Part shown: one piece after another, positions 4,152 to 45,231 of the stretch
How positions within the stretch are numbered: the first letter of the stretch is position 1
Layout: each line of letters begins with the position of its first letter
Origin: Bacteroidota bacterium
GTDB taxonomy: Bacteria; Bacteroidota; Ignavibacteria; Kryptoniales; JAKASW01
Length of the DNA: 64,000 nt
Direction: 5' to 3'
NCBI GenBank assembly: GCA_023381615.1
Contig: JAMCQL010000042.1
Coordinates: 1-64,000, forward strand
Position numbers and translations under genes: made by a program
The notes under the pieces: generated by a model
Seen by the model: the letters and a program-made list of their open reading frames with translations, nothing else
Database searches by the model: none
Told to the model about the DNA's origin: nothing

Positions 4152-4166
4152 TAAAGGAGAAAATAA

Positions 4167-5080: not shown

Positions 5081-5087
5081 GCGCCTT

Positions 5088-5161: not shown

Positions 5162-5381
5162 AGATATAGTCCGGCAGCAAGGATTTTTTGTTCATTGTAA
5201 AACACGAATAATTCGAAGAGTTGCAGTTGCTCGTTTCTTCACACAATGTTGTTTTCTACTTCCGTGGTATCATTAATTGTGGAATATTGAGCTTTGACTC
5301 AAGTCCCCGTTTTGCCGCCAATCTTTCGTCCGTATCGGGAGTCGAAATGAAAGATTTTTTTGTTATTATTATGAAACAAAT

Positions 5382-5410
5382 TTGTTTTTATGTTGTCAAA
5401 TAAGTATAGA
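5382..5410 (+). promoter_or_regulatory. Possible promoter for the sigma factor gene
   Basis: TTGTTT (5382-5387) and TATAGA (5405-5410) are separated by 17 bp and lie 55 bp before the sigma factor start. The surrounding 5162-5464 stretch is AT-rich and holds no gene. Bacteroidota promoters differ from the classic consensus, so this is tentative. Confidence 0.3.
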
Positions 5411-5464
5411 GACGATGGTGATGAAGAATTTTATCGACTGTGTAAAACAAACAAGGAAAAATAA

Positions 5465-28200: not shown

Positions 28201-29042
28201 CAGTTGATCGTATCGGAGACTTTGTACTTCGGTAAGTATTTCAGAACGACTTTTGCGAGATCGCTCGAGATCAGACTGCGCGAGCCTTCCAGCGAGTGGA
28301 CGATTTGTGAGCCTTTGTAGAATTCACCGATTAGCTCTCTTGATGAGCGTCCGGTCCAGTTTTCATCTGCGGTGATGAAAAACCTGTCGAACTGCTCGCT
28401 CTTATGCTCTATTGCTTTTGCAAATGCCTGAGATACATCGTGGACATTTACCCATGCCCATAAATTTTTGTACCAGTTCGGATATTCGGAAATAAGTTTG
28501 CGATAGGTCTCGCGTTCTTTTTCCTCCGGAACCCAGATCCACGGAAAGCGGAGCGCAACGGTGTGAATCCCGTACGCACGCGAAAAGCCCTTCAGGATTT
28601 CTTCGGAGCAAACCTTGCTGAGTCCATAAGCGTCCTGCGGTGCGAGCGGATGTTGTTCGTCGATAGGAAAATAGAGTGGGGCATGAGTGCGTTTCGCGAA
28701 TGCGAAGCCGAGCGTTGACTCGCTCGAAGCAAGAACGACTTTCTTTATACCGTTCTCTGCGGCGAACTGCATTATGTTGAATGTGCCGAATGTATTGACA
28801 TGAAACACTTTCTCCGCAGGATCGTTCAAAGGATGCGGGATGCCGGCAAGATGAAGTATCGCATCGAATTTGTTTTTGATGGTTTTTAGACTTTCGCTTT
28901 GTGTAACGTCGACTTTGTGAAATTTTACATCGAAGTTAGGCTTAACTTTGTCAGCAACGACTACCTCGTAGTGGGATGCAAGGTCCTGGGCGACATATTT
29001 TCCGACAAGTCCGGATCCGCCTGTAATCAGTATTTTTTTCAA
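28200..29042 (-). CDS. NAD-dependent epimerase/dehydratase family protein
   Basis: A 280-aa extended short-chain dehydrogenase: Rossmann TGGSGLVGKYVAQDL (residues 7-21), DAILHLAGIPHP, Ser of the active site in LASSESTLG and catalytic YGLSK (Tyr-x-x-x-Lys, about 139-143). It acts on a nucleotide sugar or a related sugar substrate. The exact reaction is not clear. ATGA overlap with the beta-CASP gene shows tight coupling. Confidence 0.82.
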   Translation of the reverse strand: MKKILITGGSGLVGKYVAQDLASHYEVVVADKVKPNFDVKFHKVDVTQSESLKTIKNKFDAILHLAGIPHPLNDPAEKVFHVNTFGTFNIMQFAAENGIKKVVLASSESTLGFAFAKRTHAPLYFPIDEQHPLAPQDAYGLSKVCSEEILKGFSRAYGIHTVALRFPWIWVPEEKERETYRKLISEYPNWYKNLWAWVNVHDVSQAFAKAIEHKSEQFDRFFITADENWTGRSSRELIGEFYKGSQIVHSLEGSRSLISSDLAKVVLKYLPKYKVSDTIN

Positions 29043-30436: not shown

Positions 30437-30569
30437 TCTATTGTCCCATCGAATTTTACACGAATATATTTGATGTTGCTGAGTGATTCAAGATAAAGTG
30501 GTGCGTCTCTTAGCAAGAGTAAGCTTGCTGACCGCTAAAAATTTTGGTGATAAAAAATTCAGCGAAATA

Positions 30570-30598
30570 TTGACAATAAAGTTAAATGTGGCTAACTT
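30570..30598 (+). promoter_or_regulatory. Possible housekeeping promoter of the sigma54 activator gene
   Basis: TTGACA (30570-30575), a 17-bp spacer and TAACTT (30593-30598), followed by TTTG, match both a sigma70 promoter and the Bacteroidota TAnnTTTG element. It lies about 150 bp before the activator start in the 30437-30747 gap, which holds no gene. Confidence 0.4.
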
Positions 30599-30747
30599 TT
30601 TGTAATTCTCATCCAAATTGAGTGGAGCGGGATTGTGTGGGAGAGGAAAGCTATTGAGATGGGCGATCTCAAGGAAGGATTTGTCTTTTCCTCGCCTCTT
30701 ATGAACAAACATGCGCGCAGGAGAGTTTTCAAAAGGTGGAGGGCTGT

Positions 30748-31662
30748 ATGCGGGAGCGACAGTATTATTACAAAGCGGCGTATGAAAAGGCGTTGCTGGC
30801 AGCTCGTAGCAATGGAGCTGTTCTGATAGTTGGAGAAACAGGGGTTGGCAAAGAAGTTCTTGCAAGGTTTATTCATGAACGTCCAGTCAGGAGTGAGTCG
30901 GCATTCGTTCCTGTCAACTGCGCATCCATTTCGAGCACATTGTTTGAGAGTGAGCTGTTTGGGCACACTAAGGGCGCATATACAGGTGCCACAGAATCAG
31001 GGAAGGGGTTGGTTGAGACTGCGGATCATGGCACATTGTTTCTAGATGAAGTATCGGAGATTCCCACCAACCTGCAAGTAAAATTGCTTCGGGCACTCGA
31101 GACCAAGGAATTTTATCGAGTGGGTGATCCAGCAGCAAAGAAGGTTGATTTCCGGCTTATATGCGCATCCAATAGGCCGCTTGCGGAGTTGAGTGACGGT
31201 CAGTTTCTTAGAAAAGACTTTCTCTATCGGATAAATACTTTCATCATAGAAATACCTCCGCTTCGAGAGCAAAAGGAAATGATACCTGAGCTTGCAGCAT
31301 ATTTTCTTAGGGAAAACATGTCTCAAGCAAAGTTTTCTAAAGAGGCATTCGAACTTCTTTTGTGCTATCATTTTCCGGGGAACATTCGTGAATTGAGAAA
31401 TGCTGTCGATTATGCGATTACCGCGGCCGGTGAAGGCGCTTCGATCATTAATGTGGAACACCTTCCAAACACATTACTTGAGCACTGCGGCTTTGTGAAC
31501 AGAAAAGGGGCGGCGAAACTTAAAGATACATGGGCCTGTTTTGCCAGAGCATACATCAGTTACATTTTAAATGAACATGACGGAGACGTTGACAGAACAG
31601 CAGAAGAGTTGGGCGTATCGCGTGCCACAATATACCGCGCTATTAAAAAGGAAGCCAAATAG
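30748..31662 (+). CDS. Sigma54-dependent transcription activator, PspF-like
   Basis: A 304-aa bacterial enhancer-binding protein made of only an AAA+ domain and a Fis-type DNA-binding domain. Walker A GETGVGKE (residues 29-36), the sigma54-contacting loop GAYTGA (76-81; classic GAFTGA), Walker B LFLDEVSE, the arginine-finger region LRKDFLYRIN, sensor II FPGNIRELRN and C-terminal HTH VDRTAEELGVSRATIYRAI. There is no N-terminal sensor, so, as in PspF, control must come from a partner or from expression level. ATG 30748 is preferred over GTG 30736 because GGAGG (30738-30742) is five bases upstream. It directly precedes tandem palindromes and a -24/-12 promoter, so it most likely drives the following operon. 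Confidence 0.9.
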   Translation: MRERQYYYKAAYEKALLAARSNGAVLIVGETGVGKEVLARFIHERPVRSESAFVPVNCASISSTLFESELFGHTKGAYTGATESGKGLVETADHGTLFLDEVSEIPTNLQVKLLRALETKEFYRVGDPAAKKVDFRLICASNRPLAELSDGQFLRKDFLYRINTFIIEIPPLREQKEMIPELAAYFLRENMSQAKFSKEAFELLLCYHFPGNIRELRNAVDYAITAAGEGASIINVEHLPNTLLEHCGFVNRKGAAKLKDTWACFARAYISYILNEHDGDVDRTAEELGVSRATIYRAIKKEAK

Positions 31663-31697
31663 TTTTCAGCGTTCAGCCGACAGCTGATTGCTGATTA

Positions 31698-31745
31698 GTC
31701 TCAGTTTTGAGACGGAATTCTTGGCAAAAGTCTCAAGGCTGAGAA
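31698..31745 (+). promoter_or_regulatory. Tandem activator-binding palindromes (putative UAS)
   Basis: GTCTCA-GTTT-TGAGAC (31698-31713) and GTCTCA-AGGC-TGAGAA (31730-31745) are two copies of one palindrome, 32 bp apart centre to centre (three helical turns) and about 55-90 bp upstream of the -24/-12 element. This is the classic enhancer layout for a dimeric Fis-type activator; the neighbouring PspF-like protein is the obvious ligand. Confidence 0.65.
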
Positions 31746-31792
31746 ATCACTTTACAGCCATGCTTGCTTTGATGAGAAAAGGGGGATTTCTG

Positions 31793-31808
31793 TGGCACAG
31801 TGATTGTT
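31793..31808 (+). promoter_or_regulatory. Sigma54 (-24/-12) promoter of the peptide operon
   Basis: TGGCAC (31793-31798), five bases, then TTGTT (31804-31808) gives GG-N10-GT against the consensus GG-N10-GC. The -24 half is perfect. It lies 50 bp before ATG 31859 and downstream of the tandem palindromes, so position and context agree. Confidence 0.6.
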
Positions 31809-31858
31809 ATAAAATGAGATGTTAGGCGTTCAAGATTTCTGAATCGTAATAAGGGCAG

Positions 31859-32089
31859 ATGCGAACATCAAGTTATATCATATACGTGAAACTTCTGGAA
31901 TCGAAGGAGTACTTGCTGGTGCATGGTTACACAGGGGCGATTGATTTGCTGAAACCAAATGTTATGGTTGTTTTACGGTCAGAAAAGCTGGTGGGAGGAA
32001 TGATGGCTGTGAAGGAGCATGAAGTTCCGACAACTACAGTCTTTTTGTGTGGTTATAGAAAAGGCCTATGCCTGAGATCTTGTCCCTAA
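31859..32089 (+). CDS. 76-aa ORF resembling the N-terminus of radical SAM/SPASM peptide maturases
   Basis: First gene after the sigma54 promoter, with AAGGG just before ATG 31859. Residues 5-30 (SYIIYVKLLESKEYLLVHG, then YTGAIDLL) recall the leader-peptide-recognising N-terminus of some radical SAM/SPASM maturases, but the protein stops at 76 residues without a CxxxCxxC cluster. The tail has three Cys in FLCGYRKGLCLRSC. It overlaps the next gene by 22 bp in another frame, so no radical SAM domain follows. It may be a stand-alone recognition element or a remnant of a lost maturase. The resemblance is from memory and unverified. Confidence 0.45.
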   Translation: MRTSSYIIYVKLLESKEYLLVHGYTGAIDLLKPNVMVVLRSEKLVGGMMAVKEHEVPTTTVFLCGYRKGLCLRSCP

Positions 32090-34026
32090 GGGATCCATTC
32101 GGAAACGATTTCACGGGGAAGGGAGCGACTGTCGCTTTGCACCCTGTTGCTGGAGACCAACAGGGTCTTTATCGGGATGTGTACCGTTACTTTGCGCCGG
32201 TATTCCCGGATATCCCTCCTGACGTGCTTGAGAGAATCTCCGATGCGAGCTATGACTATTTCCAATGCTTATTGGCTTATGATCAAGTGATAGACAATCC
32301 TCAGGATGAGCGAGCTGGTGAGCACACCATCGCAGGATTCGTCTTTCATGAAAGAGCGGTCAAAGCACTTGCCTCGATTTTTCCCCATAGCAGCAATTTC
32401 TGGATCGACTTTGATTGCATCAAGGACGAATACTTCAGTGCAATCGAAATGGAGAAGAACGCCGCCTCTGGCAACGTTGAATTCAATGAGGAGTATTTTG
32501 CAAAGCTTGCGAGAAGGAAGTCCATATTTTGCCTGGCAGCGGTAAGTGCACTGAGCCACCTGAGTGGAGATTTTAAGTATCAACAAATATTAGGCGACTC
32601 TATTATCAGCTTGCATGTAGGTTTTCAAATATTTGATGATATCGACGACTTTAAAAGTGATCTTACTATCGGCCAGAGGAGCTACGTCTCTTTTCTGGTT
32701 GATCGCTTCATTGATGAAAATTCGCTGGGTGTAGGTGCGGCAGACATTCTTGCGAAGCACAAGCTCTTGTTCATCTCAGGCATAGCCGCGCAGCAACTTC
32801 AGAAGGCGAGATCCTATTTTGAAAGCAGCTACAATTATGTCGCTGACCTGCCGTTGGCGGAATATAAGGGTGTCATTCTTGAAAACGCCAGAAAAGCCGA
32901 CAGACTGATCTGGGAAATTCAACAAAGCCTGATCAAGACAGAAAGCAAGCTGCGCCTCAGCAACAAGAAGCTGAACGATGGAGAGGCTGTGGTCTTGTCC
33001 GGTCAGTCGATAATGAATGCGATTTCTCAGGGAGTTGATTTTCTGCGCTCACAGCTCAACACTGACAATCTGTGGAGTGATTTCCTGACCAGTGCAGGAG
33101 AGAGCACGATATGGGTAACCTCGTATGCGGGATACATGCTCTCTGACGTGGAGATTTCGCCCCCTTGGTTGATAGGAGCGTACGAAAAATTATGTGCACG
33201 GGTGGAGAAAGGGGTTTCATTCAACGAACAAATGGTGCAAGACGGTGATTCCACGAGTTTCTACGTTGGGTTTTCTGCCCTCGTGAAAAGAGAGGTGAGC
33301 GACATTTCCATGCAAATGTGGCTGCGACACCAGACCGAGGAAGGCGGATGGACAACATATAGAGATCCCGATGCACTGCGTGTCAAGCTCGGTTTGCCAC
33401 ACGATTCCAATGTTACGGGATGGACCCAACCCCACGTGTGCGTAAGCGCTGCGGCCGCTATGATGGCTGCGCGTTGCTGCAATCTATCGGGGCACATTTT
33501 CGAGAAAACCGTACGATTCCTTTTGGAAAGCCAATTGGAGAGCGGAGAATGGAAATCGTATTGGTGGACATCAGATATCTATGCCACATCATTTGCATTG
33601 CAAGCCATTTGTGGAAGTGGCATGCAGCGTCAACATAACGATATTGGAAAGGCCTGCTCTTGGTTGACCAGTCAACAAACCAACGATGGTTCGTGGAAGA
33701 ATCCTGCAACTGGCAGTCCATGTCCATTCTACACGGCGTTAGCGATGAAAGCTTTATTGGTCACCAATTCGCTCAAATATCATCACGAGATTTCTAAAAC
33801 CGCTAAATGGTTGCTGGCAAATCAGATGTCCGATGGCAGTTGGCGATCAAAACACATACTGCGGATTCCGTCGCCTCAAATTGTAAATCCTGAAGAAGTA
33901 AAAGTGTGGCGTAAAAGTTCATTCGGTGTAAATACTCTGGTCGACAGCCACCGGCGCATTTTCACAACTGCGACCGTTGTCAACTGCCTTAAGTCATACA
34001 TGATCAGTCTGCAGGAAAGCAAATAA
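32068..34026 (+). CDS. Fusion of a prenyl-diphosphate-synthase-like domain and a terpene-cyclase/prenyltransferase toroid
   Basis: A 652-aa protein with two recognisable halves. Residues 1-300: trans-isoprenyl diphosphate synthase fold; the first Asp motif reads DQVID (72-76, against DDVVD in the ordinary synthase encoded at 50803) and the second is intact, FQIFDDIDDFKSD (Asp190, 191, 194). Residues about 315-650: an alpha/alpha toroid with four QW motifs, QTEEGGW (422), QLESGEW (489), QTNDGSW (537) and QMSDGSW (586), and a DGDST sequence (392-396) at the place of the class II cyclase DxDD. The toroid fold is shared by terpene cyclases, protein prenyltransferase beta subunits and LanC. AAGG precedes ATG 32068, and the stop is next to the M50 start. 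Possible roles: make a prenyl diphosphate and cyclise it, or transfer it to the neighbouring peptide. Neither is proven. Confidence 0.75.
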   Translation: MPEILSLRDPFGNDFTGKGATVALHPVAGDQQGLYRDVYRYFAPVFPDIPPDVLERISDASYDYFQCLLAYDQVIDNPQDERAGEHTIAGFVFHERAVKALASIFPHSSNFWIDFDCIKDEYFSAIEMEKNAASGNVEFNEEYFAKLARRKSIFCLAAVSALSHLSGDFKYQQILGDSIISLHVGFQIFDDIDDFKSDLTIGQRSYVSFLVDRFIDENSLGVGAADILAKHKLLFISGIAAQQLQKARSYFESSYNYVADLPLAEYKGVILENARKADRLIWEIQQSLIKTESKLRLSNKKLNDGEAVVLSGQSIMNAISQGVDFLRSQLNTDNLWSDFLTSAGESTIWVTSYAGYMLSDVEISPPWLIGAYEKLCARVEKGVSFNEQMVQDGDSTSFYVGFSALVKREVSDISMQMWLRHQTEEGGWTTYRDPDALRVKLGLPHDSNVTGWTQPHVCVSAAAAMMAARCCNLSGHIFEKTVRFLLESQLESGEWKSYWWTSDIYATSFALQAICGSGMQRQHNDIGKACSWLTSQQTNDGSWKNPATGSPCPFYTALAMKALLVTNSLKYHHEISKTAKWLLANQMSDGSWRSKHILRIPSPQIVNPEEVKVWRKSSFGVNTLVDSHRRIFTTATVVNCLKSYMISLQESK

Positions 34027-35240
34027 TGGTTTTACTTGACGACATTGCCATATCGAACTTCGATGAGAATCGGAAGTTGATAGTTTCGGGGGATAGGCAT
34101 TTTCTTGCAAACAAAATGACGGCCGACTTAATTCAAAGCCTTCAAACTGCGGCGACAAAGGAAGAGGCACGTAAGATTTTCTGCAGCAAACAAGATTTTA
34201 CTCTTTCGGCTGAAGAGTTTGAACGTGTGATTGCGGAAAAACTAGGACGATTCGGATTGACAGGAGATAATAACGTCTCAGCAAATCAGAGAAGGCAGCA
34301 ATACTTAAAGTTGAAAGTTCGAGTTCTCTCGCGAGAGGTTGCAGCGTACATCGCAAGGTGGTTTTCTTTTCTGTTTGGTTACGGGGTATTCTGGCCACTG
34401 TTTGCCATTGCAATTCTTATAAGTGTCGTGAACTTTGTGTTCTTCACGGGGGGAGAAATTAAGGCTGGCGGCATTGTTGTCTCCTTCTTATTGTTTGGTC
34501 TCTCAACTGCATTTCATGAAATAGGGCATGTCGCCGCTTGCCGCCATTTCGGTGGAAAGCATGGAGGAATGGGATTTGGGTTTTACATCATTTGGCCAGT
34601 TGCGTATTCGGAACTTACAGGAATATGGGCACTCCGAAAAGGTCAGAGGACGGTTGTCAATCTTGCGGGGATTTACATGCAACTTCTTTATACTGCTGCT
34701 CTGGTCGGTGGAGGATTGGGCACGGGTCTTCAAGAGTTAAATCTTGCGGCCACTGCAATCACTCTAAGTGCTGTCTTACAATTGAATCCTTTTCTTCGCA
34801 TGGATGGATACTGGGTTTTGTGCGACTTGATTGGACAGCCGAACTTGATGTCAAAAGCTTCTATGGCAGTAAAGGATTTATTCCTTTCCATTTACCGTTC
34901 CGCAGTCAGAACTGCAGTGCCAGATCAGAAGCAAGGGAAAGAGCGAAGCGTGTTAATACTTCTGTATGGTATTGCAAATATGAGCGTGGGTTTGATTTTG
35001 ATGGTTTTGATATACGTGAACTACACGGAGAGCATAGTGCGCTTTCCCGAGAAGACTTTAACGATTATCCAGAGTATTGTGCACAGCAACCTTATTTTTC
35101 AGGATCTGACGGTCCCGTACCTGACCGCTTTCACCTTCTATGTTTTGTTGGTATTACAATTGAAATCAGCGCTCTCAGCGATAATAAAAAATCAGCCCTT
35201 GCTTTTCTCAAAGCTGGAGAGGAAAATAAGGGACAAATGA
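34026..35240 (+). CDS. M50-type membrane metallopeptidase with PqqD-like N-terminal domain
   Basis: A 404-aa protein. Residues 1-85 form a small soluble domain (SNFDENRKLIVSGDRHFLAN then LSAEEFERVIAEKL) that looks like the PqqD/RRE winged helix used to recognise leader peptides. About seven membrane segments follow. The zinc motif HEIGH is at 164-168 and the third ligand motif NPFLRMDGYW at 254-263 (Asp260). This matches the putative peptide zinc metalloprotease family found with ribosomal peptides, which may cut or export the leader. Its start overlaps the fusion enzyme stop (position 34026), and the precursor-like gene begins 30 bp after its stop. Confidence 0.8.
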   Translation: MVLLDDIAISNFDENRKLIVSGDRHFLANKMTADLIQSLQTAATKEEARKIFCSKQDFTLSAEEFERVIAEKLGRFGLTGDNNVSANQRRQQYLKLKVRVLSREVAAYIARWFSFLFGYGVFWPLFAIAILISVVNFVFFTGGEIKAGGIVVSFLLFGLSTAFHEIGHVAACRHFGGKHGGMGFGFYIIWPVAYSELTGIWALRKGQRTVVNLAGIYMQLLYTAALVGGGLGTGLQELNLAATAITLSAVLQLNPFLRMDGYWVLCDLIGQPNLMSKASMAVKDLFLSIYRSAVRTAVPDQKQGKERSVLILLYGIANMSVGLILMVLIYVNYTESIVRFPEKTLTIIQSIVHSNLIFQDLTVPYLTAFTFYVLLVLQLKSALSAIIKNQPLLFSKLERKIRDK

Positions 35241-35270
35241 AAATCCGGCACAAAACCAATGGAGGTTATT

Positions 35271-35432
35271 ATGGAAACATTACAAAGGAACGAAATTGAA
35301 CAACTTCTCGACAACTTTGAAGTCGAAGAACTCGAAGACAGGATGGAGTTCACCACCTGGGGTGCATCTGCGTCGTGCACCTGCGGTCCCAATGGCTGCA
35401 CAGTGACGGTTGGCGTAACTTGCACGCTCTGA
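35271..35432 (+). CDS. 53-aa Cys/Thr-rich peptide, candidate RiPP precursor
   Basis: A short gene with a strong GGAGG (35261-35265) five bases before ATG 35271. Residues 1-27 are acidic and helical (METLQRNEIEQLLDNFEV, then EELEDRMEF), a leader-like segment; residues 28-53 switch to a core with seven Thr, two Ser and four Cys (TTWGASASCTCGPNGC, then TVTVGVTCTL), Cys at 36, 38, 43 and 51. The acidic leader next to a Gly-Ala-Ser-Cys-rich core resembles lanthipeptide and thiopeptide precursors, yet no LanB, LanM, LanC or YcaO enzyme is in the window. It sits between a PqqD-M50 peptidase and a surface protein gene. There is no Gly-Gly cleavage site. It was found by reading the gap directly and is below the length of most gene calls. 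Confidence 0.75.
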   Translation: METLQRNEIEQLLDNFEVEELEDRMEFTTWGASASCTCGPNGCTVTVGVTCTL

Positions 35433-35503
35433 TTCCGTAAAGCGGTTGGAAATTGGGAGCGCTGATTCGATTGTTTAACAACCAATAGAAGACAGGAGCA
35501 ATC

Positions 35504-36799
35504 ATGAAAACCTTAGTCGCATTCATTTTATTAGCAAACGCTGTTGTCTATTCACAAGCAAATGGAATTAAAGGACTAATAAGGGATGCAGAAACTCATG
35601 CGCCGTTGCCTTATGCAAACATTCAATTAGCCAAAACGCCGCTTGGTACTGCGTCAAATCTTGACGGTGAATTTCTGTTGAGGGTCTCTTCCTTCCCAGT
35701 TCAGATCATCGTCAGTTACGTTGGTTATCAAACGAATACCATACAGGTTGAGGAAAAGGATGCGAGCAAAATAATCGAAATTTCCCTAAAAAGAGCTGAG
35801 ATTGTTTTTCCTGAAGTAACGGTATCTGCCAGCGATACATTTGCCATTAATTTGGTTAAAAGGGTTTACGAAAAGATCACTGACAATGAAGACAGGGTGA
35901 TAAACGGCGATGGATTTTACAGACAATATCTTAAAGTCGATTCCCAATACTCAGAAATAATGGAGATGTTTCTTAGCACACTGTTGAACAGCAGAGGGAT
36001 TCTCAAAAGCGGTGTGGAAAATGGGAGATATGCACGCTTGAAGAGGGCTAAAGGCGACACCGTTTTGCCATTCTATCTTACCAATATGTCATACTTCAGT
36101 ACAGTTACATTCAAATCTAGTCAGCACAAGGATCCCTTTTTCAGTTTCTTGCCATTTGTTCATAAACCGGGTTTGTATGTTCCACTAAGACCAAACGCAG
36201 ACGAGTATTATTACTTAAAAACGGATGGATTTTACAGGACAGATGATGGGGAAAAAGTTGCAATAATAACATTTACCCCAAAGATCGACTTGGACCGGCC
36301 CACCTTCAGCGGAAGTATGGAAATCGAGGTCAACAACTCTCGACTCTTGCGCATAAATGAGAAGCTCGATGGTCTGCGACACAACCTGGTCCCTTGGCCG
36401 TCCTTTATGGGTTATTATGTGAGAGATAGCATACTGTCTTTCAGGGCTGATTTCAAAGATGTAAGCAATGGCAACTTCTACTTGGACCGTCTTGAAACGC
36501 GATACGAATTCATGGAGCGAAATGAAAAAGATCCATCTTTTAACAGACAGTATTCATTCGTTTCTTTCCTGACATTTTACGACTATCCAGAGAAAGCTAA
36601 CACTTCCAAGCTAGAGGACTCAAATCAGGAATGGGACATAAATAAGGTGATAAACGCAGGCTACAACCCGGACTTTTGGAAAAAGCACCAAGACGTCATC
36701 AACGAAATTCCAATCGAAGAGAGCATCAGAGAGTCATTCATCAAGCATGGTTTCTACGGGAATCTATTTCCAGGAGGGGAGCCATTAAATGAAAAGTAA
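35504..36799 (+). CDS. CarboxypepD_reg-like domain surface protein
   Basis: A 431-aa exported protein with signal peptide MKTLVAFILLANAVVYSQA and an N-terminal carboxypeptidase regulatory-like domain (residues 22-105: GLIRDAETHAPLPYANIQLA, LDGEFLLRV, VSYVGYQT). The rest (110-431) is a beta-rich domain as in DUF5686-type Bacteroidota outer-membrane proteins but without a complete barrel. AGGAG precedes the ATG. The next gene overlaps by 11 bp. In the island it could be a receptor, carrier or immunity factor for the peptide product; this is inference. Confidence 0.65.
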   Translation: MKTLVAFILLANAVVYSQANGIKGLIRDAETHAPLPYANIQLAKTPLGTASNLDGEFLLRVSSFPVQIIVSYVGYQTNTIQVEEKDASKIIEISLKRAEIVFPEVTVSASDTFAINLVKRVYEKITDNEDRVINGDGFYRQYLKVDSQYSEIMEMFLSTLLNSRGILKSGVENGRYARLKRAKGDTVLPFYLTNMSYFSTVTFKSSQHKDPFFSFLPFVHKPGLYVPLRPNADEYYYLKTDGFYRTDDGEKVAIITFTPKIDLDRPTFSGSMEIEVNNSRLLRINEKLDGLRHNLVPWPSFMGYYVRDSILSFRADFKDVSNGNFYLDRLETRYEFMERNEKDPSFNRQYSFVSFLTFYDYPEKANTSKLEDSNQEWDINKVINAGYNPDFWKKHQDVINEIPIEESIRESFIKHGFYGNLFPGGEPLNEK

Positions 36800-37712
36800 G
36801 ACATTACTTCAGTACATTCTTGCCATATTGATTGGCGGTTTCTTTATAATATCCGGCGTGGGAAAGATACTCAACGTCGGACAATTGATAGAGACGATTC
36901 AGAATTACGGTGTTCCACCGTTTCTAGCTCCCGCCGCAATCTTTCTTCCACCTCTGGAAATAATTCTTGGCATTCTCATTATTATGCCTGCCACAAGGAA
37001 GGCCGCGAGCGGTGTTGTGCTCATGCTTCTCCTTATATTCACAGGAGCCTATCTGTATGCGCACTTCTTTAGAGGTGTTCAGGGTTGCGGCTGCTCGGGA
37101 GAGTTTTCTTTCTTGGATATGAATCTACCTGAATTGCTCGTTCGGAATGCGGTTCTCTTCGTGATGGCATTGGCTGTCTTCAGGATCTCTGGAAGCGTAA
37201 AGACATCTTTGCTTCGCTGGCAGAAAGCATTGGTGTTTGTAGTCGCTGTCCTCTCGTCGACCGCAGCCGGTGCATCTTCTGTAGAACCGCTTGTGCAAGG
37301 CAAAGACAAATGGATTGGTGAGGATATTTACTCAACATCATTATCGCATATTATTTCTACGAACAGAGATTCTACATATCTGCTATTTTTTTACAATATG
37401 GATTGCCCGCACTGCTGGGACGCAATCGAAAATGTCAAAGCTCTCCAACGCAAGAATGTTGTTGATAAAGTTGTTGGCTGCAGTTTCGGGAACGATGCAA
37501 GTCTTTCGAGATTTGAAAGCTATTTTCATCCTAACTTTGAAACGAAACTGCTTCCGGTGGAGGAACTAAGGACAATCACGCGTTCAGTGCCTCTTGCCTT
37601 GCTCGTGCGGCGGGATACGATTATGTATGCAGAACAGGGTAAGGTATCTTCTCCGCTAATCTACCAGAAATATGTTTTGAAAAAGGGCGGTGACATCCAT
37701 ATACCCTTTTGA
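36789..37712 (+). CDS. MauE/DoxX-like membrane protein fused to a thioredoxin-like domain
   Basis: A 307-aa protein. Residues 1-160 carry four to five membrane helices of the MauE/DoxX type (LLQYILAILIGGFFIISGVG, LEIILGILIIMPA) with a GCGCSG loop at about 99-104. Residues 175-307 are a periplasmic thioredoxin-like domain with CPHC (Cys206-Cys209) after LLFFYNMD. MauE proteins help form disulfides during maturation of amine dehydrogenase and occur near Cys-rich peptides. The fused redox motif suggests electron transfer through the membrane to set the Cys state of the product. Overlaps the preceding gene by 11 bp; an IS end begins 20 bp after the stop. Confidence 0.75.
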   Translation: MKSKTLLQYILAILIGGFFIISGVGKILNVGQLIETIQNYGVPPFLAPAAIFLPPLEIILGILIIMPATRKAASGVVLMLLLIFTGAYLYAHFFRGVQGCGCSGEFSFLDMNLPELLVRNAVLFVMALAVFRISGSVKTSLLRWQKALVFVVAVLSSTAAGASSVEPLVQGKDKWIGEDIYSTSLSHIISTNRDSTYLLFFYNMDCPHCWDAIENVKALQRKNVVDKVVGCSFGNDASLSRFESYFHPNFETKLLPVEELRTITRSVPLALLVRRDTIMYAEQGKVSSPLIYQKYVLKKGGDIHIPF

Positions 37713-37732
37713 CATTACAAACTAATTCGCAC

Positions 37733-37860
37733 GGTAATGTCCGTAAGTTTGTGTAAAAATCAGGAGGTGCCGCTCCAGTCGGTTAAAATAGTGATGAATA
37801 AACAACTAAAGAAAATCAAGAAAAGGAGACAGCACCTGACAAAAAAGAAAGATCATACAT
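37733..37860 (+). mobile_element. Stranded IS left end inside the island
   Basis: GGTAATGTCCGTAAGTTTG at 37733, AGGAGGTGCCGCTCCAGTCGG and AAGGAGACAGCACCTG (to 37838) repeat the left-edge IS end (1-127) in the opposite orientation. After CTG 37836 the frame TKKKDHTST stops at once, so only the terminus and perhaps a few transposase codons remain. No right end was found nearby. Confidence 0.65.
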
Positions 37861-37864
37861 CCAC

Positions 37865-38827
37865 TTGAAATTTCCGATAGTCTCTCAAGACTCTTTGAGA
37901 CCCTTGACAGACGTTCTCCGGATCCTTTACAGAATGCCAGTATTATATACGATCTCATTTGTAATCGTAGCGTTTCATATATACTTTTATATATACTTTC
38001 AAAAACCTGTTGTTCATATCGGTTCGATTGCAGGTCCAGGTTTTATATTCGTTTACGCACTGCTTTCCCTTACCTCTTTCTTTCATGAGCTTGGACATTC
38101 TTCAGCCTGTCATTACTTTGGAGCTAAGCATGGCGATATCGGAATTGGGCTCTATCTATACTTCGTTGTGTTCTATGCCGATGTGACAGATGTGTGGAAG
38201 CTAAAAAGGATTGACAGGGCAACCGTGGATTTCGGAGGGATATACTTTCAGTTAATCTGTGTTTTGGTTCTGTTCACCATTTACGTGCTCTGGAGAGACG
38301 TGCTCATGGTAGAGGCCATATATGCAGTAGATTTTGCCGTAATAGCCTCGATGAATCCCTTTTTCCGCTTTGATGGCTATTGGGTTGTGTCGGATCTTTC
38401 CGGCGTATCCAACCTCCGCCAGAGATCGCAACAAATTGTCAAATATATTTTTGGAAAACTCAGAGGGAGAATCAGTGTCCCTCCGCCATCACTTCCAATT
38501 GAAAGCAAGGCGAAGTACTTCCTTGGTTTCTATTCCTTAGTAAGCAATTTGTTTTTTGGTTTTTTCATATACAGCATTTTCTTTTCGTTCCCGAGTCTTA
38601 TCTCCTCATACTCATCAATTGCCGGAAACTCGATAGTCGGTATCGTGCACGCAATAGGAGTATTGGATTTTTGGGGCGTCCTCCATAATCTATCGGTGAT
38701 TTTCTTCCCAACTGTCATGGTACTGATGATCGGAATGATGTTTTATAGAGGAATAAAAGCGATTGTGAAATATTTCATAAAAGTTACTCATCACTTACCA
38801 TCAACAAAGTTCTCTTTTACGAAATGA
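37865..38827 (+). CDS. Second M50-type membrane metallopeptidase, without PqqD domain
   Basis: A 320-aa membrane protein with HELGH (residues 74-78), NPFFRFDGYW with the third ligand, and about six membrane segments. It is a paralogue of the M50 encoded at 34026 (both share SxCxYFGAKHGDxG-like and RFDGYW/RMDGYW motifs), but the soluble N-terminal PqqD-like part is absent. The frame has no ATG before residue 24 (37934); TTG 37865 is the first possible start and lies five bases behind the stranded IS end, so the original N-terminus may have been cut off by the IS event. The gene ends 10 bp before the first receptor gene. Confidence 0.72.
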   Translation: MKFPIVSQDSLRPLTDVLRILYRMPVLYTISFVIVAFHIYFYIYFQKPVVHIGSIAGPGFIFVYALLSLTSFFHELGHSSACHYFGAKHGDIGIGLYLYFVVFYADVTDVWKLKRIDRATVDFGGIYFQLICVLVLFTIYVLWRDVLMVEAIYAVDFAVIASMNPFFRFDGYWVVSDLSGVSNLRQRSQQIVKYIFGKLRGRISVPPPSLPIESKAKYFLGFYSLVSNLFFGFFIYSIFFSFPSLISSYSSIAGNSIVGIVHAIGVLDFWGVLHNLSVIFFPTVMVLMIGMMFYRGIKAIVKYFIKVTHHLPSTKFSFTK

Positions 38828-38837
38828 GTTGATTGCA

Positions 38838-41099
38838 GTGAGATTATTTATCCTCTTCGTATTAGTGGTTGTCAACGCTGGGAGTGTCATTGCCCAACAG
38901 AACGGACTGGGGAGGATTGAGGGGGTGGTTACCGATGCGGAAACCGGGAAGGCAATTGAAGGGGCCACAGTTATACTTGTGGGAACCGGCATGGGTATTT
39001 CTACAAAATCTGACGGCACTTTTTCGCTTGACAAGGTACCCAGTGGAGTTTACGACATTTCCTGTGGTTGTGTTGGATACGAAACCGTCAAGGAGAGGAG
39101 TGAGGAGGTTCACGGGGGTGCAAGTATAATGTTTAGGTTTAGACTGACCCCGGAGCCAATTCGGATGAGTGAAGTTCTTGTTTCACCAAGTAGTTTTTCG
39201 TTTTCTGCCAGTAAAGGGTTCACCTACCAAATGTCATTCCAGGAATTAAAGAAATTGCCTAATCCTACCGACGACATTTTTCGCAGTGTTCAAGTCCTCG
39301 CTGGGGTGACGACAGATAATCTTAACGCGCAATTCAGCGTTCGTGGGCAAGACTTCCAGGACATGTTGACTTTGATAGATGGCTTGGAAATCTACGAGCC
39401 GTTCCATTTGAAGAATCCAATGGGGGGAGACTTTCAGTTCAATGGGGGGGTGGGCATTGTTGGTCAGAATATGGTCAAGAGTGTGGATCTTTCTTTGGGT
39501 GGTTTCCCGGCGCGTTATGGGAACAAGGACGCGGGGGTTTTCAATATCATCACGAAGGACCCCCAGGGGGACACCTTGCATGGAAGCGTTAATCTTGATT
39601 TCACCACTTCTGCCTTGACGTTACAGAAGACTTTCGGAAATCAAGGATTCTTTCTCTCTGCAAGAAGAGGCAACTACGATATTCTCATGAAATTATTAGG
39701 CTATGGGACTAATGGGGTTCCTGACTATTATGATCTCTTTGCAAAATACGTGTACCGTCCAAGTGAAGAGGATAATTTTTTTGTTGACTTCCTGCATTCG
39801 AGTGATAACTTAACCTTTCAGGACTCTTACCAGCCTAGCATTACAGCGCAGTGGATAAGTGACTACAATAATTATCTGTGGGCCGCGTGGAATCACAGGA
39901 ACGGAAGATTCTCTGACCAGACGATTCTTTTTGGAACATTGACTCCTTCACAGTATATCTGGAATGAAAACGAGCCGCCTGGAACCAATTTTGGCAACGA
40001 AGGGGAGAAATCATATACTTTCGGCCTAAAGAGCAATCTTACCTTTGATGTGACGGAAACCAGTTCGTTGGAAGCGGGGGTAGAGTTGAGAAGGGCTGCT
40101 AACAGGGGAACTTTCTTTCGTGTTGCTCAAGACACTCTGTATTATCCAACAGGAACCGACACGGTTCAAGCCGGCTTGAATATTCTTGGCTACGACTTAG
40201 GTTCCTATGTCCTTTACAAATTTGGCGCTTTAGATAATTTTGCGACTCTCGATTGCGGTTTGCGCTTTGATTATCAGAGTTACATCAAACGTGGAAACAA
40301 GCAGCTAAGCCCGCGTTTAGCTCTTGCGCTTAGGCTTCCTTTCAGAACAACAGTGAGACTTGCATACGGTGACTACTATGAACCTCCGGATGTCACCAAC
40401 CTGGAATCGCTTACTCCGGATCTTAGAATATCCAGTGCTGTGCATTATATCATTGGACTGGACAACAATTTTCTAAAGGGCACGAACATACGTCTTGAGG
40501 CATATTATAAGCGGCTGTCCCCAAGTGCAGATTCGATTTATTCGTACTCGAGGTTTTTTCCTCTAAGCTATGGTTATTCTCAGGGAGTCGATTTGATAAT
40601 TCAATACAATGCTTCACCGTTGACAATATGGGTGAACTATTCTTACGGACTAGCGAAGGACGTGGCAACCAATGGAATGCAGTTCTATCGTGACATGGAC
40701 AGGAGGGACTTTTTTTCAGTTGTGGGAGACTATCAGATTGGAAGCTGGGACTTCAGCATTGTTGGGCGGTATATGACAGGATTACCTTACACATATTTCT
40801 ATTGGACAAAAACAAAGAAGGGAAATCAATACTACTGGGTGGAGGGAAGCGGTCATCAGTACAACGGTGCGCGAACGGATTCATATAGCGATATAGACAT
40901 TCGTGCAAGCAAGTGGTTTCACTTGCCATACGGAAAATTGCTGGTCAAACTTGAGATCATGAACCTGCTTAATTCGAGGAGCCTGTACGAACAACGCTGG
41001 GACTGGGTCAGCGATGGCGTCGGAGGATTCATGCCGGTCCAGGATAACTTCTACACACTCCCCCTCATCCCTTCGTTCGGAATTCGTTGGGAATTTTAG
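38838..41099 (+). CDS. TonB-dependent receptor with CarboxypepD_reg domain, copy 1
   Basis: A 753-aa outer-membrane receptor: signal peptide (VRLFILFVLVVVNAGSVIAQ), CarboxypepD_reg-like domain (about 22-105, GRIEGVVTDAETGKAIEGAT), plug domain (LPNPTDDIFRSVQVLAGV, FSVRGQDFQDMLTLIDG) and a barrel ending in aromatic IRWEF. It takes up a substrate with energy from TonB. GTG 38838 is chosen because the copy downstream starts at the same GTGAGATTAT position. No SusD partner is present. A natural role in the island is uptake or surface binding of the peptide product or its ligand. Confidence 0.85.
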   Translation: MRLFILFVLVVVNAGSVIAQQNGLGRIEGVVTDAETGKAIEGATVILVGTGMGISTKSDGTFSLDKVPSGVYDISCGCVGYETVKERSEEVHGGASIMFRFRLTPEPIRMSEVLVSPSSFSFSASKGFTYQMSFQELKKLPNPTDDIFRSVQVLAGVTTDNLNAQFSVRGQDFQDMLTLIDGLEIYEPFHLKNPMGGDFQFNGGVGIVGQNMVKSVDLSLGGFPARYGNKDAGVFNIITKDPQGDTLHGSVNLDFTTSALTLQKTFGNQGFFLSARRGNYDILMKLLGYGTNGVPDYYDLFAKYVYRPSEEDNFFVDFLHSSDNLTFQDSYQPSITAQWISDYNNYLWAAWNHRNGRFSDQTILFGTLTPSQYIWNENEPPGTNFGNEGEKSYTFGLKSNLTFDVTETSSLEAGVELRRAANRGTFFRVAQDTLYYPTGTDTVQAGLNILGYDLGSYVLYKFGALDNFATLDCGLRFDYQSYIKRGNKQLSPRLALALRLPFRTTVRLAYGDYYEPPDVTNLESLTPDLRISSAVHYIIGLDNNFLKGTNIRLEAYYKRLSPSADSIYSYSRFFPLSYGYSQGVDLIIQYNASPLTIWVNYSYGLAKDVATNGMQFYRDMDRRDFFSVVGDYQIGSWDFSIVGRYMTGLPYTYFYWTKTKKGNQYYWVEGSGHQYNGARTDSYSDIDIRASKWFHLPYGKLLVKLEIMNLLNSRSLYEQRWDWVSDGVGGFMPVQDNFYTLPLIPSFGIRWEF

Positions 41100-41264
41100 G
41101 TAGATCATTTTCACAATCAAACGGACATGGCTGCTACGAAATCCATAGAAGCTTGGCGGGCAAGTCTAAATATAGGGGTATCGCAGCGATTGCGAGGTAC
41201 ATTCTCAGGTCAAGTCGCCGGCTACCATCCACCAAGGTCTCTTTAATGAAATGAGTCAATTGCA

Positions 41265-43517
41265 GTGAGATTATCTTTTTTGTTTATCATAGCGATGCTG
41301 AATGCAGTGACCGTTTTTTGTCAAGAGAGTAAGCTGGGAAAAATTGAGGGGGAGGTTGTCGATGCAGAGACGGGTCACCCAATTGAGGGGTCCACTGTCG
41401 TGCTTGTGGGGACCCGCTTAGGTGCTTCCACAAAATCAGATGGCACTTTCTCAATTCAATTAATACCAACAGGAGTATACGATGTTTCTTGCAGTGCTGT
41501 CGGACACGAAACCGTCATCAAAAAGCGGGTAGAAGTCAGCGATAGCACACCTGTGAGCCTTGAATTCAAACTAACGCCGCGACCAATTCGTATGAGTGAA
41601 GTAGTTGTTTCCCCCAGCAGTTTTTCGTTTTCTACAGGTAGAGAGTTCACACATCAAATGTCATTCCAAGAATTGAAGATGCTACCCAATCCTACCGATG
41701 ACATTTTTCGTAGTGTGCAAGTCCTCGCAGGAGTATCGTCAGACAATCTAAACGCACAATTCAGCGTGCGAGGGGCTGATTTAGGTGAAATGTTAACCGT
41801 TATCGATGGTATTGAAGTTTATGATCCATTCCACATGAAGCGACCCTTTGGTGCCGACCTTCAAATGGATGGCGCCATTAGCATAATAAATCCCGAATTG
41901 GTTGAGAGCGCTGACTTGTCACTTGGTGGTTTCTCTGCGCGTTATGGTAACAAGGATGCGGGGGTTTTTGTGATCAACATGATGGATCCGAGAGGCGACA
42001 GTTTGCATGGGAATCTCAATCTTGATCTCGCCACTTTCGGGTTAACGCTAGCGAAGACTTTCGGAAATCAGGGATTCCTTGTCTCTGCGCGAAGAGGAAA
42101 TTTTGATATGCTCATGAAACTGTTAGGCTATGGAACTAACGGCATTCCTTCCTACTACGATTTTTTTGCCAAATATGTCTACCAACCGAGCAGCACCGAC
42201 AAAATCTTTCTCGATGTACTGCATTCGCAGGACAATATGAAATTGTGGGACTACGATACTGGCATTCCGAACACATGGATAAATAATTACGTTACCTACG
42301 CGTGGGCGGGATGGAAACATACAGGGGAGAGCTTTGCGAGCCAAACCTATCTTTTCGGCTCAGTTGTCCCCTCGAATTTCGATTGGAACAACAGCGAGTC
42401 GTATGGAGTCAAACTTGGCAATGAACAAGAAGTCTCGTACGCGGTGGGATTAAAGAGTGACTTCCAATTTGACCTTTCTGAAAATACTTTGTTAGAGGCG
42501 GGTATTGAAGCAAGAAGATCCAGAAACACACTCACCTATTTCCAAAGCATCCAGGATACATCCTACGTCCCACCTGAATACGACACCGCGAGGACAAACC
42601 TATTAATATCAGGCTATGACTTTAGCTTGTACCTTCTCTACAAGTTTGGTCTTTTCAGCGGCCTCGCATCCTTTGACTTCGGACTGCGGTTCGATTACCA
42701 AAGCTACATTCAAACCGGAAACGAACAGGTGAGTCCTCGTATCGGTGCGGCCTTCAAGTTTCCCCTCAAGACAATCCTGAGGCTCGCCTATGGAAGTTAT
42801 TATCAACCTCCCGATGTCACGAATTTGGAGTCACTTAATCCAGATTTGAAGGTCGCGGAGGCTACTCACTACGTAATCGGATTTGACAATAGTTGGTTTA
42901 AGGACATTAACATACGGCTCGAAGGATACTATAAACGCCTGTCGCCAAGTTCGGACTCAATTTATTCCTACTTAAATTACTTCCACTTAAAATATGGTTT
43001 CTCTCAAGGAGTGGATTTGATTGTTCGGTACAATATTTCGCCGTTCACATTCTGGGGGAATTATTCCTATGGCATTTCGAAAGATGTGTCGGCAGAAGGA
43101 ATTGAGTTCTATCGCGACATGGATAGACGGCAATCCTTCTCATTTGTTGGCAACTATGAATCAGGGGACTGGAATTTCAGCGCGGTGGTGCGTTACACCA
43201 CGGGTTTGCCATATACTTCTTCTTATTGGATATTTTCAAAGGTGTCTGATGGATATCGTTGGATCTATGGGAGCAGCGAGTACAATGTAGTGCGAGCCGA
43301 TCCATTCAGTGAAGTAGATGTCCGAGTGACAAAAACCTTTGCCATGCCTTATGGAAGACTGCTGGTGAAGCTTGAGATCATGAACTTACTCAATTCAAGG
43401 AGCCTTTTTGAGCAGCGCTGGACTTGGAGTAAGACCGACGGAGGAGTTATTCCTGTTAAGGATAATTTCTACACGCTTCCGCTCATTCCATCATTTGGGG
43501 TTCGTTGGGAGTTCTAG
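41265..43517 (+). CDS. TonB-dependent receptor with CarboxypepD_reg domain, copy 2
   Basis: A 750-aa receptor, clear paralogue of the preceding gene along its full length: same domains (signal peptide, GKIEGEVVDAETGHPIEGST, plug LPNPTDDIFRSVQVLAGV, C-terminal GVRWEF). The GTG start has the same upstream sequence as copy 1, including about 40 bp that match the 3' end of the second M50 gene, so the gene arose by tandem duplication in place. Divergence is greatest in the extracellular-loop regions, consistent with different ligands or selection. The next gene, glgA, begins about 230 bp later. Confidence 0.85.
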   Translation: MRLSFLFIIAMLNAVTVFCQESKLGKIEGEVVDAETGHPIEGSTVVLVGTRLGASTKSDGTFSIQLIPTGVYDVSCSAVGHETVIKKRVEVSDSTPVSLEFKLTPRPIRMSEVVVSPSSFSFSTGREFTHQMSFQELKMLPNPTDDIFRSVQVLAGVSSDNLNAQFSVRGADLGEMLTVIDGIEVYDPFHMKRPFGADLQMDGAISIINPELVESADLSLGGFSARYGNKDAGVFVINMMDPRGDSLHGNLNLDLATFGLTLAKTFGNQGFLVSARRGNFDMLMKLLGYGTNGIPSYYDFFAKYVYQPSSTDKIFLDVLHSQDNMKLWDYDTGIPNTWINNYVTYAWAGWKHTGESFASQTYLFGSVVPSNFDWNNSESYGVKLGNEQEVSYAVGLKSDFQFDLSENTLLEAGIEARRSRNTLTYFQSIQDTSYVPPEYDTARTNLLISGYDFSLYLLYKFGLFSGLASFDFGLRFDYQSYIQTGNEQVSPRIGAAFKFPLKTILRLAYGSYYQPPDVTNLESLNPDLKVAEATHYVIGFDNSWFKDINIRLEGYYKRLSPSSDSIYSYLNYFHLKYGFSQGVDLIVRYNISPFTFWGNYSYGISKDVSAEGIEFYRDMDRRQSFSFVGNYESGDWNFSAVVRYTTGLPYTSSYWIFSKVSDGYRWIYGSSEYNVVRADPFSEVDVRVTKTFAMPYGRLLVKLEIMNLLNSRSLFEQRWTWSKTDGGVIPVKDNFYTLPLIPSFGVRWEF

Positions 43518-43746
43518 CGCGCCCTACCCGGTGCTCCCACCTTGTCATCACTTCCTTTTCCTCCTGAACCAGAACGGAGTCTGCTTTACAATCAACAAAC
43601 AATCTGATGCCTGAATCGTCGTGTACCATCTTTTGCCGGTTCCAGACCATGGGGTGTCCTGTTCCACTTTGTCTTTTGTATCCATGAAATGTAATTGATT
43701 ATGAGCCTATTTTTTGGTAATATTAGTAAACAAATCATGGTATGAA

Positions 43747-45231
43747 ATGACGCAACCCCTCAACGTTTTATTCCTATCCTCAGAAGTGTTTCCTTTTGCA
43801 AAAACCGGCGGTCTTGCCGATGTTGCCAGCGCGCTGCCGCAAGCGTTAAAGGAAATCGGAAACGATGTCAGGCTTGCAATTCCTCGTTACGGTTTCGTGA
43901 GCGAACGAAAGTTCCGCATCCACGAAATCATTAGGCTGAAAGACATCGATATCCCAATTGGCAAGAAGGTGGCGAAGCTTAACGTGAAATCGTCGTTCCT
44001 GATCGGTGAGCGTACGAAAGTTCAGGTATATTTCATCGACAGCTCTGAGTTTTTCGGAAGGCCGGGAATCTATCAGGATCCAAAATCAAAGAAGGATTAC
44101 GCCGACAACGACGAGCGATTTATTTTTTACTCGCGCGGTATTCTTGAAATATTGAAACTGCTTGGATGGGCGCCGCACATAATTCATTGCAACGATTGGC
44201 AGACCGGGCTTGTGCCGGTTTATCTGAAAAAGATTTACAGCCGCGATCCGTTTTTTAAAAACATAAAGACTGTTTTCACGATTCACAATATTGCTTATCA
44301 AGGCAACTTTCCGAAAGAGACTTTCCAGAAAACCGGATTACCGGCGGATGTCTTCACACCGGAAGGCGCAGAGTTTTACGGCAAGTTCAGTTTCATAAAA
44401 GCCGGTATCGTTTACTCGGATTACGTGACCGCCGTCAGCAATACTTACGCTAAAGAAATTTCAGAAAGCGAAGAGTACGGCTTTGGTATGGAAGGTGTCC
44501 TGAAAAAGAGAAAGAAAAAATTTACGGGGATTGTGAATGGAATAGATTACTCGATTTGGAATCCGGATACCGACCAATACATTCCTTTCAAGTACAGCGT
44601 AAAGACGCTCGACGCGAAAGTCGAGAACAAGAAATATTTGTTGAAGAGATTCAACATGAAGTTCGATCCGTCGGCTCCGTTGATCGGAATGGTGACGCGC
44701 CTCGTAGAGCAAAAGGGAGTTGATCTGGTTATCGATGCGTTTCCTGAGATCATGAAAATGAATGTGCAGCTGATTATTCTCGGTACAGGCGAGAAACAGT
44801 ACCACGCAAAGCTCGAAGCACTTGCAAAAAAGTATCCTGAGAAGTTTGCCTTGCAGTTGGGTTACGACGATGAGCTTTCACATCTCATAGAAGGAGCATC
44901 CGATATTTTCTTGATGCCGAGCAAATTCGAACCTTGCGGACTGAACCAGCTTTATAGTTTAAAATACGGAACTGTGCCGGTTGTCAGAAAAACAGGCGGC
45001 TTGGCAGATACTGTAAAAGAGGTTAACGCGCAAAAGGGAACCGGTACCGGCTTCCTTTTCGAGACATATAAACCGGGCGAGATGGTAAAGGCGCTCGCGC
45101 GCGCGGTCAGTCTTTTTGGCGATCAGAAGAACTGGCAGAAGGTAATGCGCAACGGGATGCTTGAAGATTTTTCCTGGACTTATTCCGCCAGAGAATACGC
45201 AGAGCTTTATACCAAGATTCTCGAGAAGTGA
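43747..45231 (+). CDS. glgA: Glycogen synthase (ADP/UDP-glucose type)
   Basis: A 494-aa GT5 enzyme extending alpha-1,4-glucan chains. The ADP-glucose binding KTGGLADV motif (about 18-25), HNIAYQGNF, GIVNGIDYSIWNP, and MPSKFEPCGLNQLYSLKYGTVPVVRKTGGL with its C-terminal nucleotide-binding residues are all present. ATG 43747 (MTQPLNVLFLSSEVFPF) is the normal family start, preferred over upstream 43714. It heads the nine-gene plus-strand operon; the next gene overlaps by four bases. Confidence 0.95.
   Translation: MTQPLNVLFLSSEVFPFAKTGGLADVASALPQALKEIGNDVRLAIPRYGFVSERKFRIHEIIRLKDIDIPIGKKVAKLNVKSSFLIGERTKVQVYFIDSSEFFGRPGIYQDPKSKKDYADNDERFIFYSRGILEILKLLGWAPHIIHCNDWQTGLVPVYLKKIYSRDPFFKNIKTVFTIHNIAYQGNFPKETFQKTGLPADVFTPEGAEFYGKFSFIKAGIVYSDYVTAVSNTYAKEISESEEYGFGMEGVLKKRKKKFTGIVNGIDYSIWNPDTDQYIPFKYSVKTLDAKVENKKYLLKRFNMKFDPSAPLIGMVTRLVEQKGVDLVIDAFPEIMKMNVQLIILGTGEKQYHAKLEALAKKYPEKFALQLGYDDELSHLIEGASDIFLMPSKFEPCGLNQLYSLKYGTVPVVRKTGGLADTVKEVNAQKGTGTGFLFETYKPGEMVKALARAVSLFGDQKNWQKVMRNGMLEDFSWTYSAREYAELYTKILEK

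Follow-up and report, generated by a model that had tools for sequence, protein, structure and literature searches.

What does the gene island in this stretch of DNA make, and does it belong to a described kind of pathway? The stretch, called the window throughout, is the first 64,000 nt of contig JAMCQL010000042.1, from a Bacteroidota genome of 3.37 Mb in 86 contigs. An initial annotation had noticed an island running in one direction from a sigma54-type activator to two TonB receptors, with a short peptide gene and an isoprenoid-enzyme fusion between them. Checks of open reading frames (ORFs), Pfam and NCBIfam recovered all of its elements on one strand, about where they had been placed. From sequence, structure prediction and analogy, we read the island as a chimeric gene cluster for a ribosomally synthesized and post-translationally modified peptide (RiPP) of the ChrPC terpenoid type, with proposed Trp prenylation and cyclisation, and give this reading a probability of roughly 0.85.

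The assignment turns first on a two-domain enzyme, referred to as the PC fusion:

32068..34026, + strand: PC fusion, 652 aa, with the P domain at about residues 32-295 and the C domain at about residues 312-651

The P domain has a trans-isoprenyl-synthase fold, with D72 and D76 in its first Asp motif and DDxxD at residues 190-194 plus D198 in its second, which is intact as DDxxDxxxD. When 25 P domains were combined in a profile, it matched polyprenyl synthetases at 3e-6; 8 of the 25 members hit PF00348. The C domain is an MstE-like class II terpene cyclase with DxDST at residues 392-396: in PDB searches residues 314-647 hit monodomain class II cyclases of the MstE type at 5e-30 to 1e-24, MstE itself at 2e-28, and the Asp pair D392/D394 (DGDST) lines up with the DADTT motif of MstE. 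Judging by a one-residue offset, we take the MstE counterpart of D394 to be D109, which is mutated in 6sbd and 6sbe. The AlphaFold2 model of the fusion (pLDDT 88.5, pTM 0.86) matched MstE in Foldseek at 4e-16, with a target-normalised TM-score (TMt) of 0.86, and a polyprenyl synthase with a TMt of 0.65. Residues D72, D76, D190, D191, D194, D198, D392 and D394 are invariant across 30 aligned rows. Both predicted folds and the invariance of the catalytic residues are established at the level of sequence and structure prediction.

The second element is the candidate substrate of this enzyme:

35271..35432, + strand: precursor peptide, 53 aa, leader ...FEVEELEDRME, core FTTWGASASCTCGPNGCTVTVGVTCTL

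A GGAGG stands just upstream of this ORF, and the core holds four Cys and a single Trp, Trp30 (35358-35360), directly after the leader. Fusion loci were gathered from whole-genome searches and from a species-representative contig search with a four-row alignment, which gave 35 non-identical complete or nearly complete loci, the window included and near-identical Allomuricauda contigs counted once (loci and genomes carry our own L and G numbers); a scan of viral contigs found no fusion relatives. Besides Bacteroidota metagenome-assembled genomes (MAGs), the sources include Hymenobacter, Pedobacter, Emticicia, Chryseolinea, Chryseobacterium, Flavobacterium, Mucilaginibacter, Allomuricauda and others. 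At least one short ORF with the leader motif F/L-x-V/I-E-E-L-E-x-R-x-E lies near 33 of the 35 loci, and the two without a match to the leader hidden Markov model (HMM), L050 and L056, are on contigs under 5 kb. The window precursor sits at the same position as in syntenic loci, and a leader HMM built without it recognised it at an E value of 1.4e-7, the next best of 727 small ORFs scoring 0.55.

Every small ORF at the loci was scored with the leader HMM, so that the choice of precursors was independent of core content. It gave 49 matches at complete-fusion loci, a few of them identical copies, and all 49 have a core Trp; the only Trp-less matches are two in L020, a locus whose P domain has no C domain. 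Cores without any Cys occur at L051, L054, L057-L060, L063, L064, L073 and L074. Since many cores lack Cys and none at complete-fusion loci lacks Trp, the conserved feature is Trp. The Cys-rich short ORF that the initial annotation had expected to recur beside the fusion does recur as a family, though its conserved residue is Trp and not Cys. The precursor family, its Trp conservation and the synteny, like the island boundaries given below, are established by sequence comparison together with structure prediction.

This conservation bears directly on whether the peptide might be modified on Cys, by S-prenylation. The window core, with four Cys against one Trp, could be read in that way, and so could L020 (G092; 21-263, 627-830, 3271-4221), which combines a lone P domain with two same-leader, Trp-less precursors with very Cys-rich cores (..LSCYCAINLCGGYCCELCGGQCSFCSYCGGDEICNTM) and suggests that its trans-isoprenyl diphosphate synthase (trans-IDS)-like enzyme acts on a non-Trp residue, perhaps Cys or Tyr. 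For the window we reject S-prenylation because of core conservation across loci, many cores being free of Cys and all complete-fusion cores containing Trp. In the available text of PMC13290415, every characterised trans-IDS-like peptide prenyltransferase uses Trp, and the CPHC thioredoxin of the island would suit disulfides. Modification on Cys thus appears very unlikely.

Several loci vary the arrangement of fusion and precursor. At L045 (G339; 7319-8364), a single fusion is preceded by six precursor genes in tandem, which have one leader in common and differ in their short Trp cores, an array that amounts to a natural substrate library. L076 (8866-12829) has three precursors and a tandem pair of unlike fusion genes, each falling in a different clade of the PC tree, and L105 (G680; 228-2353) encodes C-type and P-type proteins as two adjoining, unfused genes. 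A possible further variant is L021 (G002, same genus as the window; 4173-4403, 4681-6123, 7950-10199, 10145-11110). There the C domain has a gene of its own (321 aa), a 749-aa protein joins a P-like domain of divergent sequence to a SPASM-like C-terminal part, and a SPASM radical SAM protein and an ABC transporter are encoded as well; the 76-aa peptide of this locus is rich in Cys but has neither Trp nor the VEELE leader. L068 (G089:C22), filed under the Ignavibacteriae MAG NAT134, has a cluster essentially identical to that of Allomuricauda (L069, L070, L078); its contig is probably misbinned and was therefore left out as evidence for the class.

Between the fusion and the precursor lies a protein with a candidate RiPP recognition element (RRE):

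34026..35240, + strand: RRE-M50 protein (M50a), N-terminal PqqD/RRE domain plus intramembrane metalloprotease (HEIGH, NPFLRMDGYW)

The N-terminus of its AlphaFold2 model forms three strands and three helices, and Foldseek matched the model to the RRE TbiB1 (probability 1.00), PqqD 5sxy (0.72) and SpoIVFB (probability 0.99). A PqqD-like RRE fold is joined here to an M50 domain, which agrees with the PqqD-M50 peptidase of the initial annotation. Proteases of the M50 family are responsible for maturing epipeptides, EpeX being one (PMC10885120). The fusion has an M50 protein next to it at all complete-fusion loci but L041, where the contig stops about 0.9 kb past the precursor.

These neighbours help to decide whether the fusion could instead be an ordinary meroterpenoid or terpene enzyme, whose C domain cyclises a small molecule and whose neighbouring peptide gene is unrelated. 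The C domain is nearest to MstE, an enzyme of prenylated benzoate, and the P domain retains its full DDxxDxxxD second motif, as such an enzyme might. However, the one-family precursor with its core Trp recurs at 33 of the 35 loci in many genera, M50 proteins adjoin nearly all fusions, ChrPC provides a precedent as far as PMC13290415 describes it, and the Pfam and NCBIfam scan of the island found no gene for an aromatic acid or any other small-molecule scaffold. Plain terpene clusters, which the initial annotation had named as a setting that would speak against its own reading, are not where the fusion occurs: it adjoins RRE-M50 proteins and precursors. We regard the small-molecule explanation as very improbable.

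A peptide pathway of this kind has precedents. According to the portion of PMC13290415 available, cyclised-terpene ribosomal peptides were first reported in 2024 with two enzymes, both from Hubrich et al. 2024 (Chem 10:3224): ChrPC, whose trans-IDS-like P domain modifies an internal RiPP Trp with C10-C20 donors and whose C domain cyclises the prenyl, and NctPC, in which an ABBA-type P domain and an MstE-like C domain geranylgeranylate Trp and then cyclise. The window has a trans-IDS-like and MstE-like fusion, an adjacent internal-Trp precursor and conserved catalytic Asp residues. Given this ChrPC-type architecture and precursor, the island belongs to a described kind, although the initial annotation could match it to none.

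The Chryseobacterium relative L077 (precursor ..VEELENRLEM..NKICW) has the leader motif and the neighbouring M50 in common with the window, whereas the window fusion is about 22% identical to that of L077 and its core differs, with Trp straight after the leader. Unlike the ChrPC pathway, the window has no intact radical SAM or P450, and it has a MauE-thioredoxin, TonB-like proteins, sigma54 control and a chimeric island. NctPC is alike in MstE-like cyclisation after Trp geranylgeranylation, but with an ABBA rather than a trans-IDS fold in the P domain. ComQ/ComX and PalQ/PalX also use isoprenyl-synthase-fold enzymes that prenylate a peptide Trp, as proposed here, but they have no cyclase domain, the ring is formed on the indole, and the leaders are others (NHLP in PalX). 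ComQ is without the second Asp motif (PMC10853753), whereas the window enzyme is fused to a cyclase and keeps its second DDxxD motif. MstE (6SBB and others) has the C-domain fold and the DxD catalytic motif in common with the window, but it stands alone and acts on prenylated benzoate, while the window domain is fused. The daptide and epipeptide M50 proteases (NF041824, NF058609, EpeP) are likewise intramembrane M50 enzymes of RiPP pathways and are related in sequence to those of the window.

Other RiPP classes were tried and rejected. For daptides, M50a reached 96 bits with NF041824 (daptide_HExxH) against a cut-off of 300, and no daptide enzyme match was found in the other island proteins; for epipeptides (LiaK/YydH), NF058609 gave 50 and 56 bits against 225, and the radical SAM is merely a stub. 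The Pfam and NCBIfam scan of ten island proteins gave no LanB, LanM or LanC and no YcaO enzyme, which rejects lanthipeptides and YcaO peptides, and a radical SAM/SPASM RiPP was rejected for want of a complete maturase. The initial annotation was right that none of these enzymes is present in complete form, because the 76-aa ORF of the island is an N-terminal stub of a SPASM radical SAM protein. In the literature available, no description was found of the sigma54 control, the radical SAM stub chimera, the constant RRE-M50 partner or the Cys-core/MauE association, which is weak evidence that they are undescribed.

The island has clear boundaries, and its remaining genes point to two origins:

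30506..43685, strand not assigned: inserted island, about 13.2 kb; homology to sister intergenic DNA ends at about 30505 and resumes at about 43686
29039-30436, - strand: metallo-beta-lactamase-fold gene, left flank
43714-45231, + strand: glycogen-synthase-like gene, right flank
31859..32089, + strand: 76-aa ORF, N-terminus of a SPASM radical SAM RiPP maturase with the enzyme core deleted
35504..36799, + strand: CarboxypepD-reg-like (CPD) surface/outer-membrane protein, PF13715
37865..38827, + strand: second M50 (M50b), a remnant of the genus's native cluster that has lost its RRE
38829..41099, + strand: TonB-receptor-like protein 1, with CarbopepD_reg_2 and Plug
41265..43517, + strand: TonB-receptor-like protein 2, tandem paralogue, 60.7% identical to protein 1

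In the genome comparison, the gap between the flanking genes is 112-921 bp in nine sister species against 13.3 kb in the window, which bears out the earlier use of the word island; it is an insertion at a site that is empty in nine sister genomes. No target duplication was seen at the island ends, and neither GC nor GC at third codon positions sets its parts apart, so that composition gives no independent support for a chimera.

In the trees, the fusion and M50a group with Cytophagales, Sphingobacteriales and Hymenobacteraceae (98/90 and 100/99). The order PC-M50-precursor-CPD-MauE is that of L052 and, in all but MauE, of L051, L054, L057 and L059; CPD homologues come after the precursor in these five loci. 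M50b falls together with its counterparts from L016, of the same genus, and L020, of the same class, at 96/88, inside a 100/100 clade, and begins at residue ~132-144 of its homologues, with the upstream frames closed. A homologue of TonB-receptor-like protein 1 lies within the L020 cluster. The 76-aa ORF aligns with the N-termini of the L016 and L019 radical SAM proteins (MRTSSYIIYVKLLESKEYLLVHGYTGAIDL vs MRISDYIIYLRLPGSGKYLLVHGYTGAVDL); this homology exists only at the protein level, and the DNA comparison with L016 matches just the 3' end of the activator gene. Sister clusters L016, L019, L042, L044, L046 and L104 have a complete SPASM radical SAM where the window has its stub. The gene order is activator, radical SAM, precursor, TPR protein, PC and M50 in the same-genus cluster L016 (G008), and radical SAM, precursor, TPR, PC and M50 in the class relatives L019, L042 and L104. 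The window activator is 62% identical to the one preceding the L016 cluster.

The simplest reading is that the middle of a resident radical-SAM-type cluster was replaced by an incoming cassette. The PC fusion, RRE-M50, precursor, CPD protein and MauE-thioredoxin, of Cytophagales/Sphingobacteriales type, would form the cassette, and the activator, the radical SAM stub and the RRE-less M50 would be what was kept. Sequence and structure prediction establish the two ancestries.

An island with such remnants might also be a decaying, non-functional cluster. Its radical SAM is cut to 76 aa, its second M50 is without the RRE, and the same genus holds the relic of a broken fusion (L015, G004; 9676-10353), interrupted by a stop, with about 50% identity to that of the window and an ABC transporter fragment beside it. 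Yet the cassette is complete and unbroken: its catalytic residues are invariant, its ribosome-binding site is good, and promoter and enhancers are intact; in its clade, such cassettes normally have no radical SAM. We consider decay unlikely. Elsewhere, the Chryseobacterium-type fusion loci L043, L077, L062, L065 and L066 have a SPASM radical SAM beside M50, and a P450-like gene is also present in L043 and L077.

The regulatory part of the island comprises:

30736..31662, + strand: sigma54-dependent activator, PF00158 at 4e-58 (sigma54-interaction, AAA+) and PF02954 (Fis-type helix-turn-helix)
31699..31712, strand not assigned: palindrome 1, TCTCAGTTTTGAGA, probable activator-binding site
31731..31744, strand not assigned: palindrome 2, TCTCAAGGCTGAGA, probable activator-binding site, 32 bp after palindrome 1
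31793..31808, + strand: -24/-12 (sigma54) promoter, TGGCACAGTGATTGTT, a TGGCAC-N5-TTG match

The activator is without an N-terminal sensor domain. The TGGCAC-N5-TTG consensus has a single match in the whole 64 kb (0.43 expected), located between activator and operon, and sigma54 itself is encoded in the same genome, all in agreement with the PspF-like activator and promoter proposed initially. Two TCTCA-N4-TGAGA palindromes, absent from that annotation, lie about 50-95 bp upstream of the promoter and nowhere else in the window (2 against 0.10 expected; none of 100 shuffles gave two), and are probable enhancer sites bound by the activator. Sigma54 promoters that work through an enhancer usually have this layout of paired palindromes upstream of a -24/-12 site. 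In L016, the DNA ahead of the sister operon showed no -24/-12 consensus, and sigma54 control is therefore supported for the window alone.

The last cassette protein may act on the Cys residues of the core:

36789..37712, + strand: MauE membrane domain (PF07291) plus thioredoxin-like domain with a CPHC active site

CPHC is the active site of DsbA as well, and is common to the proteins of the window and L053. Within the window's own clade, MauE or MauE-thioredoxin is present at L052 and L053, which have Cys cores, and absent at L051, L054, L057, L058 and L059, which are Cys-free; the MauE-CPHC-thioredoxin would accordingly be a candidate for forming disulfides in the core.

Taken together, these parts suggest a pathway in which the sigma54 activator would switch on one operon and the RRE domain of the M50 protein would recognise the 53-aa precursor through its FxVEELExRxE leader, for at least one step. 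The P domain would move a long prenyl group, C15-C20 and most probably geranylgeranyl, from the diphosphate donor onto the Trp30 indole, and the C domain, through D394 of DxDST, would protonate the chain to give fused rings. The RRE-M50 intramembrane protease would cut off the leader and perhaps aid export; once the peptide is exported, the MauE-CPHC-thioredoxin would oxidise the four core Cys to disulfides. That the conserved Trp receives a terpene chain which is then folded into rings is very probable; donor length, leader cleavage, disulfides and export we infer from sequence. The initial idea of a peptide made, redox-treated, cleaved by M50 and modified by an isoprenoid enzyme gains support from the comparison across fusion loci.

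A fuller account is tentative, with a chance somewhat below even: a RiPP with a cyclised terpenoid on Trp and disulfides formed by the MauE-CPHC-thioredoxin, encoded by a Cytophagales/Sphingobacteriales-type cassette that took over the middle of the genus's radical-SAM-type cluster, displacing its radical SAM chemistry while the activator, and with it the sigma54 switch, was retained. If true, pathways are exchanged as cassettes, and one regulator can drive different chemistry on a new core.

Some points count against the ChrPC-type reading and its details. The window's P domain alone has no Pfam match, which is why its fold was checked by profile and model instead, and its first Asp motif is DxxxD and not DDxxD. 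The likeness to ChrPC is one of P+C architecture and of an internal Trp, as described in the review PMC13290415. M50a stands on a long branch (1.66), and the gene remnants may signal degeneration of the island. The association of Cys cores with MauE, 3/3 against 0/5 with the window included (one-sided Fisher 1/56), comes from eight loci, a small set in which some are closely related and not independent.

The 49 leader-HMM matches with their invariant Trp, together with a near-constant candidate leader-binding protease, place leader recognition, donor length and ring chemistry within reach of direct test, and a natural cassette exchange between pathway types suggests that swaps of the kind an engineer might attempt are already tolerated in nature. 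Farther afield, MstE-like cyclase segments occur on contigs assigned to Woesearchaeota and Nanohaloarchaeota (L079, L080).

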